Below, in pieces: positions 24,242 through 52,832 of a DNA stretch of 64,000 bases. The DNA comes from an uncultured Bacteroidales bacterium. Lineage in GTDB: Bacteria > Bacteroidota > Bacteroidia > Bacteroidales > Bacteroidaceae. Position 1 is the stretch's first letter. Each line of letters opens with the position of its first letter. The stretch covers positions 223,132 to 287,131 of the forward strand of contig CACYLU010000002.1 in NCBI GenBank assembly GCA_902775375.1, in the 5' to 3' direction. A program made the position numbers and the translations under genes. The notes beneath the pieces were generated by a model. That model searched no databases. It saw nothing but the letters and a program-made list of their open reading frames with translations, and was not told where the DNA came from.

Positions 24242-24314
24242 AGCGGCAAACGGGGTTCGAACCCGCGACCTTCGGCTTGGGAAGCCAACGCTCTGCCAAC
24301 TGAGCTACTGCCGC
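24242..24314 (-). tRNA. tRNA-Gly (anticodon CCC)
   Basis: A complete cloverleaf on the minus strand: acceptor GCGGCAG / TTGCCGC (one G-T pair), D stem GCTC/GAGC, anticodon stem TTGGC/GCCGA with loop TTCCCAA, giving anticodon CCC, and T arm with TTCGAAC. The discriminator base is T, normal for glycine. CCA is not encoded. A consensus promoter lies 18 bases upstream. Confidence 0.95.
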
Positions 24315-25349: not shown

Positions 25350-25529
25350 AATTATTTACTTCAAGACAACAGTATAACACTATGTCACTACAACAAGCAA
25401 CTGTATTGTAGGTACGATAATATCCGACATCGCTACTATGAAAGTCGATTTATTTTTATGGGGTGGTGAAGATTTAACATTTGAGGACAATTCATGTGTA
25501 TTAATTCTAGGTTTAGGAAAAGACATACA

Positions 25530-26088
25530 GATTACAGATTACAGATTACAGTTTATTTGGGGAGCTATGTATGCTTCAAACAAAAAGATAAAGTTTATAA
25601 CTTTATTACATATATAATATTAATATTATATATATAATAATTTTTTTGTTCCCAGATAAAGTGGTACTCATGAGAAAACTGTAATCTGTAATCTGTAATC
25701 GAAACACATCCCAGAGTCTAGGACTTTTCGCAGTTTCATCGACTATATAACTCCTATTGACTTACTGAAAAACCACTGTAGATCTGGCAAACTTGGATGA
25801 ATATACAGCGCCGTGCCCCTGCGCCCATAATAGGTGTAGCCAGCCTGCTGTAGCGTTACTACCGCTAAACTGCCCGCTTACTTCCGCTAAACCCACCTTT
25901 TACTTCCGCTAAATGTTTTGGGGACTTACTGGGGCGTTTAGCGGTGTCTGGCGGTATTGAATTTTAATGCGTATATTGGTGAGGTGTGTTTGCATATAAA
26001 ATGGGTAGCAGAAAAAACAAAAATAATATAATATATTTTATTATATCATTTGCATATATAAAATATATTCATTAACTTTGCAAAGCAA
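25530..26088 (+). repeat. Composite intergenic element, copy A
   Basis: Parts in order: inverted arms of three GATTACA repeats (25530-25554) and three TGTAATC repeats (25676-25700), perfect over 25 bp; between them a 24-bp perfect AT-only palindrome (25610-25633); then a conserved block of CCGCTAAA repeats (25856-25923; 42 bases with two mismatches to copy B) and its partial inverse GTTTAGCGG near 25936; then a 37-base AT-rich stretch (26033-26069) identical to copy B, containing the -33 of an outward promoter. No gene is seen inside. Copy B is at 52119-52715. Confidence 0.85.
26049..26080 (+). promoter_or_regulatory. Outward promoter at the end of element copy A
   Basis: TTTG (26049-26052), 20 bases, TAACTTTG (26073-26080), an exact Bacteroidota promoter. 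It would start transcription near 26084, about 345 bases upstream of the next gene. Confidence 0.7.
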
Positions 26089-26393
26089 TTGAAAAATAAC
26101 ACCAAGACATCAGCCAAAGGCCACGGCGGTGACACAGTGAAACACTTGATTGCAACCATTCATGAATGATTATTCATCCAGGACAAGCTAAACGGCATTA
26201 CGGCTGCACTGACAGCTATCAGCACCACGAGCTGTATGGGACACGGACCAGTATATTTCTAAAAAGGAATATTTTTCTAAAAATATTTCGAGAAGCATGG
26301 GACACGGTCCTATCTATATGTGAGAAAATGTTTACATAAGTATGTCCGGTAAGGAAACTTATCGGGCTTTGTCATGAAAAAGACATGATATTG
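26089..26393 (+). other. Untranslated stretch with short repeats
   Basis: No gene found. It holds ATGGGACACGG[A/T]CC twice (near 26235 and 26297), an AT-rich hairpin between them (near 26268-26290) and a hairpin CCGGTAAG / CTTATCGG near 26346-26365. It would be the transcript leaving element A. Confidence 0.5.
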
Positions 26394-30436: not shown

Positions 30437-30467
30437 CATCCGGAATTGGCAAACCGAAGTATTTTCA

Positions 30468-30615
30468 TACAAGGTTTCAAGGGAATCAGGTGAAAGACCT
30501 GAGCTGTTCCTGCAGCTGTAATCCTCTATAAAACAAGAGGTCTGCAACTACAAGCGCCACTGTTGCTTAGCAATGGGAAGGCCGTGCAAGACCGAGGAGA
30601 GCCAGAATACCTACC
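30468..30615 (+). ncRNA. Cobalamin riboswitch
   Basis: The standard landmarks are present in order: GGGAATCAGGTGAAAGACCT, GAGCTGTTCCTGCAGCTGTA, a variable hairpin (CCTCT...AGAGG), GCGCCACTG, GGGAAGGCCGTGCAAGACCG and AGCCAGAATACCTACC. It lies between the promoter and the first TonB receptor and should shut down the 15-kb operon when adenosylcobalamin or a relative binds. Confidence 0.93.
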
Positions 30616-30680
30616 TTTTCCAAACGAAAATTAACAGAGCTTCCAGGTAAGAAGCGAAGAATGTCGGATTTTTTAATAGT

Positions 30681-52118: not shown

Positions 52119-52715
52119 GCGTACCAGCATACCATGCATACCAGCGTACCATGCGTACCACGCATAATTTAACTACGGCACACTAACGAAACAGGCATAC
52201 CAACGTAACAGCGTACCATGCGTACCATGCGTACCACGCGTTACTTTGATTTTTATTTTTAAGACAGAAAAAGTGTATCATCAAATTTTATATATTATTT
52301 ATATATATAATATATATTATATATATAAATAATATATAAGGTACGTGACACATGGGTGGTATGTAAAATTGATTTTAGTCGTGGTACGCATGGTACGCAT
52401 GGTACGTGGTACGCCAAGCACCACCCTACGCATTGCCATAACAGGTTTTAAACAATGCTGGCGCTTACTACCGCTAAACGGACGGTTTTGTTCCGCTAAA
52501 CCCACCTTTTACTTCCGCCAAATGATTTGGGGCTTTCCTAAGCGTCTATTATACCACCCGCTCACCACTTCCGCTAAGTGCATGAAAACATCTAAAGGCA
52601 TTATAAAGGCTATAGGGTCATCATGCTACGACGGGTTAATCAACAAACGCCTTTTAAGTAAATATTTTATTATATCATTTGCATATATAAAATATATTTT
52701 ATAACTTTACAACAT
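52119..52715 (+). repeat. Composite intergenic element, copy B
   Basis: It starts 5 bases after the esterase stop. Five 9-base units related to GCGTACCAT (52119-52163), then inverted arms of the same unit, perfect over 26 bp (52212-52237 and 52381-52406). Between them is an AT-only perfect palindrome of 52 bp (52288-52339). Next come the conserved CCGCTAAA block (52465-52532), a further CCGCTAA near 52570 and the 37-base stretch identical to copy A (52662-52698) with an outward promoter. No convincing gene is inside. Confidence 0.85.
52678..52709 (+). promoter_or_regulatory. Outward promoter at the end of element copy B
   Basis: TTTG (52678-52681), 20 bases, TAACTTTA (52702-52709; one mismatch from the consensus box). 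It points at the convergent DUF4251 terminator, so any transcript would be short, about 120-150 bases, and carries only a seven-codon frame at 52713. Confidence 0.6.
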
Positions 52716-52832
52716 GATAGTTGAGAAACTGAGCTGACAACACTGCTGGTGGCCAACAGCGATGGAAGAAGCAAAGGTCCGATAATTACAAGAAAATATC
52801 GTTCTTTGACAGATTGTACAAAATGCCTTGGC

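Follow-up and report, generated by a model that had tools for sequence, protein, structure and literature searches.

Word-built hairpins upstream of HU-HIG/smalltalk genes in a Bacteroidales genome keep their pairing while the word differs from copy to copy

Inverted repeats made of short tandem units form the ends of eukaryotic foldback elements, and inverted iterons surround an AT-rich palindrome in some plasmid or viral origins. HU-type proteins are a class that favors bent or cruciform DNA; a 2017 paper is said to deal with the HU/IHF clades. REPIN/REP-RAYT elements are dispersed intergenic inverted pairs that give long hairpins, according to the part of the source available to us (PMC3116915). 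The BrickBuilt MITE of Porphyromonas gingivalis, also a member of the Bacteroidales, is reported in the accessible part of its description to have 19 intergenic copies, promoter elements, and a 23-nt tandem minisatellite (PMC4596501). Template switching between inverted arms homogenizes the arms, as far as the available portions of two papers extend (PMC8794818, PMC8604942). In the open-license literature, we found no relevant paper on HU-HIG proteins and no description of a word hairpin upstream of HU-HIG/smalltalk genes. Here, we describe such hairpins in the genome of an uncultured Bacteroidales bacterium.

Two of them, A and B, are located in the window, by which we mean the whole 64,000-nucleotide stretch that was analyzed. 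Their features are as follows.

25410-25495, plus strand: conserved left module of A, upstream of the hairpin, 89.5% identity to the C19 HU unit
25530-25554, plus strand: left arm of A, three GATTACA words
25603-25640, no strand: AT palindrome of A, 19+19, 95%
25676-25700, plus strand: right arm of A, GATTACA words inverted, 25/25 complementary to the left arm
25856-25923, plus strand: CCGCTAAA core of A, a tandem repeat of 22 bp
26049-26081, plus strand: promoter-like TTTG-N-TAACTTTGC of A; HU-unit leader homology extends to 26095
26197-26262, plus strand: 3' remnant of a smalltalk gene in A (ITAALTAISTTSCMGHGPVYF, stop), by alignment and translation
52119-52253, plus strand: left word cluster of B, GTACCATGC type, plus outer degenerate words
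52212-52238, plus strand: left arm of B, perfect part
52288-52339, no strand: AT palindrome of B, 26+26 perfect, 52 bp
52380-52406, plus strand: right arm of B, perfect part
52465-52549, plus strand: CCGCTAAA core of B, 85.9% to the C17 copy
52661-52778, plus strand: promoter-like block of B (core 52678-52698) and HU-leader remnant, 79-81% to units C19 and L171

Inverted arms of tandem repeats, an AT palindrome, the CCGCTAAA core, and an outward promoter-like block had been claimed for both copies in a sequence-only reading of the window, and all are present in both. The perfect arms, given there as 25 and 26 bp, measure 25 bp in A as claimed and 27 bp in B, where they sit within a longer 42-nt pair that is 83% paired. 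The arm-to-palindrome gaps, given as 55/42 in A and 50/41 in B, become 48/35 and 49/40 when the palindromes are taken at full length. The promoter-like block, in which we take TTTG ... TAACTTT to be the Bacteroidetes promoter motif, begins 349 bp past the right arm in A and 272 bp past it in B. A chance origin is ruled out by shuffling and simulation: single-strand DNA folding gave z values of -9.80 for A and -12.97 for B, and in neither case did any of 200 shuffles do as well. An arm detector found two hairpins in the window, compared to 0, 0, 1, 0, 0, and 0 across six Markov simulations of the same sequence. The earlier judgments that the hairpins are neither a CRISPR array nor a known riboswitch stand: the words touch or lie a few nt apart and are inverted, with no unique spacers of similar length between repeats, and no Rfam RNA or riboswitch scores above the gathering threshold at A or B. 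The only Rfam matches in the window are a cobalamin riboswitch (30455-30632) and a tRNA (24242-24314).

Presented as a two-copy element, the hairpin is such only within the window. Searching its own genome (2.43 Mb, 90% complete) with the CCGCTAAA core returned 30 matches at 28 loci, all of which were read for flanking arms. Thirteen are of the A/B type, 10 by rule and three (L006, L008, and L015) by alignment or eye; their inverted arms mostly repeat a 7-9 bp word 3-4 times and are usually separated from an AT palindrome by ~45 and ~40 bp. Nine carry another kind of hairpin, class 2 (L013, L016, L018, L021, L022, and L025 by rule; L014, L019, and L024 by eye), and six carry neither (L009, L012, L017, L020, L026, and, doubtfully, L023). 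The rule with its AT palindrome selects 11 core loci (A, B, L001-L005, L007, L010, L011, and L025), and L025, which passes with a palindrome of 17 bp, is nevertheless assigned to class 2. Shared blocks without the arms, or copies that are decayed gene remains, had been named as evidence against the original reading. Both were found in part, the former at the nine and six loci just listed and the latter in A, which, as set out below, aligns as the decayed remnant of a gene unit; the 13 A/B-type loci do carry the design.

Class-2 hairpins consist of several blocks, mostly of GTGAAGAG words, that alternate one word with its complement (GTGAAGAG; elsewhere CCGACAT, AGTGGAGTG, or ATGAAGTGTT); they were observed at L013, L016, L018, L021, L025, L212:12651-12971, and L220:18244-18469. 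GTGAAGAG is common to several class-2 copies, and the relatives L029 and L031 carry TGACAG and AGTGGAGTG versions. The core (25856-25923 and 52465-52549 in the window) is a 22-bp minisatellite that is found also without hairpins and by class-2 hairpins. Recurring beside the hairpins at L014, L016, L021, L022, L024, and L205 are short palindromes of the CCCTCGTGAGG kind, flanked by A/T-rich sequence, as well as AATTCTCATGAGAATT palindromes. A scan of 464 kb, comprising the window and 20 stretches of 20 kb at spaced positions holding none of the 28 core loci, found seven word hairpins: A, B, L205, L214, L219, and two of class 2. L219 has no palindrome by the scan rule and one of 17 bp by the rule used for measuring geometry.

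An intact unit has the order hairpin, core, promoter, HU-like gene (HU-HIG), and smalltalk gene. Ten of the 11 matches to TIGR01201 (HU_rel) in the genome were examined, C2:156638 being left out. A class-1 hairpin lies upstream at four of the 10 (C20, C19, C5:112381, and, by eye, C1:89119), and a class-2-like pair with 53-nt arms ends 106 bp upstream at C1:14396; no hairpin was found upstream at C16, C6, C2:1837, C8, or C5:127768, the last two judged by rule only. Four of the proteins score 43.8, 43.2, 50.9, and 64.4 bits against HU-HIG (PF18291; Pfam cut-off 26.2), and the HU proteins fall under the TIGR01201 cut-off (42-47 compared to 68.6 bits). A smalltalk-type ORF follows the HU gene on C20 and at C5:112381 and C1:89119; the C20 peptide, the only one scanned against families, matches NF033879 and PF20096. 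The predicted HU-HIG structure (mean pLDDT 47.7) is too poor a model for use. The C1:89119 unit has two ORFs directed away from the hairpin (L076:1042-2087), which, named from their sequence, we presume to be helix-turn-helix regulator-like and metallopeptidase-like, and several GTTCGGATTTGTAATCCG-type inverted repeats occur upstream of the HU-HIG genes at L117 and L131.

Hairpin A is collinear with the intact units except for the hairpin arms, the spacers, and the HU gene, and its AT palindrome gives short matches only. It aligns with the C19 unit over the left module (25410-25495, which has nine matches genome-wide) and again from the core through the promoter to the leader (25856-26095); its smalltalk end (26200-26385) aligns with the C20 unit. 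The HU_rel search gave no match to an HU gene at either copy: A keeps the leader and the 3' end of smalltalk, and B keeps the leader only. Because the HU gene is missing in A and the matches of B to HU units end in the leader, both copies are remnants. As judged from these alignments, copy A is a wrecked gene unit without its HU gene, and each of the two is an upstream hairpin of the HU-HIG/smalltalk unit that stands solo, with arms that still match perfectly. The earlier proposal of a left end of a mobile module is thereby amended: the hairpin is the left part of this unit, and mobility is a rival reading discussed below. The smalltalk end is partially matched once more at 26287-26334, just past the first match.

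The hairpin is statistically linked to one HU-HIG clade. Relatives of the C20 HU-HIG protein at E <= 1e-20 occur in 10 of 158 genus-group genomes, its own included, and at 33 loci in named assemblies, many with titles that mention ruminant samples. Twenty-seven of these loci were usable, after six with short upstream sequence or a partial gene (L174, L177, L182, L188, L193, and L197) were left out. By rule, a word hairpin with an AT palindrome lies within 2 kb upstream of 10 of the 27, and an eleventh, at L181, a locus of the same type as L117, was seen by eye. No word hairpin was found in the 27 downstream stretches. Background windows, picked clear of known copies, had one in 3 of 200 cases. 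The upstream 1.5 kb of other HU_rel genes, represented by the best HU_rel matches in the genus, had none in 30, and a general rule for HU_rel genes, which number 2 to 43 matches per genome in 60 genomes, is rejected on this count. Fisher tests gave 2e-4 for 10/27 against 0/30 and 2e-8 against 3/200, for loci that are not independent, since L178 and L179 are near duplicates and L172, L173, and L199 share one assembly. The 3/200 background is too low because its 400 kb holds none of the 28 core loci; a re-test with a generous guess of 34 copies per 1217 windows gave 6e-9. The hairpin and HU-HIG are not obligate partners, since 17 of the 27 relatives have no hairpin by rule (L181 among them) and most hairpin copies in the host genome stand without an HU gene. 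The hairpin is a candidate cis element for the unexplained, highly multiplied HU-HIG/smalltalk genes. The earlier suggestion of a DNA structure that a protein recognizes would fit the link to HU-HIG.

The proposal that pairing and geometry are constant while arm sequence differs holds over many copies and several species. Among 36 chosen elements, 33 could be measured, with 43 mismatches in 885 arm bp when the best arm pair per element is taken; L006, L015, and L076 gave no match and were read by eye. The left gap ranges from 24 to 68 (21 of 33 within 40-55), the right gap from 21 to 68 (26 of 33 within 33-50), and the palindrome length from 17 to 63. In the assembly RUI513, three paralogous units share one skeleton and carry ACATTAC, ACATCAC, or ACATAAC throughout, so that 7/7 words (four left and three right) are changed with identical spacing. 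In an alignment of this trio, 98.7% of cells are paired over 26 arm pairs and four pairs carry a change in both partners; between 2 and 6 of 500 shuffles scored as high and sliding the partners destroyed the signal, for a comparison of three sequences only. Pairing alone does not prove the selection for a long hairpin that had been proposed, because template switching between inverted arms also makes arms match.

Word changes are shown by these alignments to be common to all or nearly all repeats and to both arms. For example, L001 and L005 of the host genome have GTTGCAG and GTTACAG, respectively, in 6/6 words with spacing kept, and L076 and L219 have GGTCA and AGTCA in 8/9 words, the ninth being CGTCA via base loss, with small spacer changes. 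By a simple formula, the probability of independent substitution is ~1e-6 to 1e-8 per concerted case; for L076/L219, it assumes a divergence of 0.25 and eight words, compared to a measured divergence of 78/282. In C12, the array is mixed, with three ATACCA and one GTACCA on the left and 6 + 1 with the opposite majority on the right, and L175 has one GATGACA among GATGGCA words. L002 and L003 swap a 2-nt spacer between arms. In the C12 and L002/L003 patterns, slippage and conversion are visible. One skeleton with three versions of one word base in a single assembly is close to a set of paired natural experiments, against which models of slippage, of template switching, and of co-evolution between a protein and its site can be tested directly.

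The words themselves share a motif. On the left-arm strand, with each element turned so that the core, promoter, or HU gene falls on the right, 31 distinct words show a T-N-N-C-A tendency (C is present in all 31, A in 28, and T in 23), with 19 words having CA only compared to one having TG only; none of 200 letter shuffles and none of 200 strand shuffles, given equal restarts, reached this score. The words were chosen by eye from design-bearing arms, leaving out weak or palindrome-less repeats (L104, L183, L184, L190, L192, L193, L195, L196, and L201), L170, and copies whose word duplicates a listed one. The motif weakens when each skeleton family contributes a single word: among 21 families, T is present in 13, C in 21, and A in 15, CA-only words outnumber TG-only words 14 to one, and 3/200 letter shuffles and 2/200 strand shuffles reached the score. 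The common C and A positions suggest a putative kept contact.

We tentatively favor, with something less than even confidence, a DNA hairpin site with iterated words that are homogenized by template switching, its function being inferred. The hairpin would work at the DNA level, the AT palindrome being a center that may open easily or form a cruciform, and the inverted word clusters would be iterated half-sites with a TNNCA tendency for a putative DNA-binding protein. The likeliest structural partner would be an HU-type protein, which may act on the promoter of its own unit. Template switching and slippage inside the hairpin could spread a mutation to all repeats or erase it, with shifted pairing of the word arrays extending the switching to all words; C and A would meanwhile remain under constraint, and T more loosely so. 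Together, homogenization and constraint would let each copy drift to its own word with pairing intact. Besides the relatives without a hairpin and the weaker motif per family, two observations stand against this. Conservation of the arms exceeds the free-drift prediction in A/L011, where the arms are identical at 50/50 bases and the rest, including outer flanks that are partly non-homologous, differs by 36%, and in L004/L006, where the arms differ at 2/52 compared to 28% elsewhere; L002/L003 show the opposite trend, with arms that differ at 6/52 compared to 8% elsewhere. In addition, homogenization should scramble spacing, which is nevertheless kept in the RUI513 trio.

A broader reading, possible but somewhat unlikely, is that the hairpins form a chromosomal family in which each copy lineage owns an address word of 7-9 bp, present 6-8 times across the two inverted arms and switched as a block, with pairing kept and spacing kept in two sets. 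On this reading, they would be a DNA address system, self-homogenizing or reader-matched, that is tied to the multiplying HU-HIG proteins.

Unlikely, in our estimation, is a private recognition code, in which each copy is read by a private sequence-specific factor, be it protein or RNA; word and reader would change together, so that a switch has to take in every word of a copy. The concerted switches of one base in 7/7, 6/6, and 8/9 words, in the first two of which spacing is unchanged, and at the low probability of independent substitution given above, are what such a code predicts, as is the greater conservation of arms than of the rest in A/L011, L004/L006, and L015/L076, the last pair being similar to the others; in L002/L003, however, the arms show no such excess of conservation, and the mixed arrays of C12 and L175 exist. 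Solo copies retain matching arms without the genes of the unit. Moreover, no reader was found, and the HU domains do not track the words: the domains of L171 and L132 are identical at 88/88 positions with the words GTAACAT and ATCACCA, those of L122 and L134 are identical at 46/46, and those of L111 and L132 at 86/88, with different words within each pair. Identical domains with different words indicate that the word is not dictated by the HU domain, which is rejected as the word reader.

We consider it decidedly unlikely that the hairpin marks the left end of an HU-HIG/smalltalk unit that transposes, or that it is a small mobile hairpin in its own right. The copies are numerous, homology in several pairs starts at or near the left arm, and no element lies beside relatives of the neighbor gene of B (5/5) or of A (2/2 inspected, of nine fetched). 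However, the far-side neighbors differ as well, so that there is no clean empty site at relatives of A or B, and the right arm lies within the unit, two points that bear on any comparison to a MITE, which would have terminal inverted repeats at both ends and a target duplication. A search with PF01797 for a Y1 (TnpA_REP, RAYT) transposase gave 0 matches at E <= 0.001 in the genome, at its 90% completeness. Relatives of the HU protein gave no match in phages, two weak plasmid matches, and one weak viral contig, so carriage as plasmid or phage cargo has little support. At L226, a hairpin with the word ACTAACA and an AT palindrome occurs ~1.2 kb from a relative of the neighbor gene of B, about 1.25 kb into the last 1560 bases of L226 when these are oriented with the gene, a position that differs from that of B.

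A structured RNA or terminator acting after transcription appears improbable. The compensatory pairs of the RUI513 trio, the intergenic location, and a very stable fold, computed as DNA, would fit such a role, but pairing is also explained by DNA template switching, an RNA stem needs no tandem words, and no Rfam family was found at the gathering threshold. The hairpin also lies outside the HU leader, because the promoter-like block is downstream of it in A and B. An origin-like or partition-like site from a former replicon, which the layout of inverted iterons around an AT-rich palindrome might recall by resemblance only, is very improbable, given that no initiator gene was recognized among the ORFs listed beside the units and that HU relatives are nearly absent from plasmid and phage collections.

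Compared to known systems, the DNA hairpin site with homogenized words that we tentatively favor belongs beside genes that are already classified, in that the intact units carry HU-HIG/HU_rel (PF18291, TIGR01201) and smalltalk (NF033879, PF20096) genes. By analogy, it would resemble the foldback elements in its inverted repeats of tandem units and differ from them in being internal to a gene unit. REPIN/RAYT is rejected as an identification, since the search of the 90% complete genome found no Y1 transposase and the arms have no single REP sequence in common; here, they are built of tandem words, which vary from copy to copy within a genome. Quasipalindrome template switching, as treated in the available portions of the sources (PMC8794818, PMC8604942), accounts for matching arms but alone leaves the tandem words and the common motif unexplained. 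BrickBuilt differs in its IS5-like terminal repeats, and the accessible part of its description does not mention an AT palindrome between word-built inverted arms (PMC4596501). Its 23-nt minisatellite is comparable to the 22-bp core described here, and, on the accessible part of that source, BrickBuilt is the nearest published repeat to this core that we found in the open-license literature.
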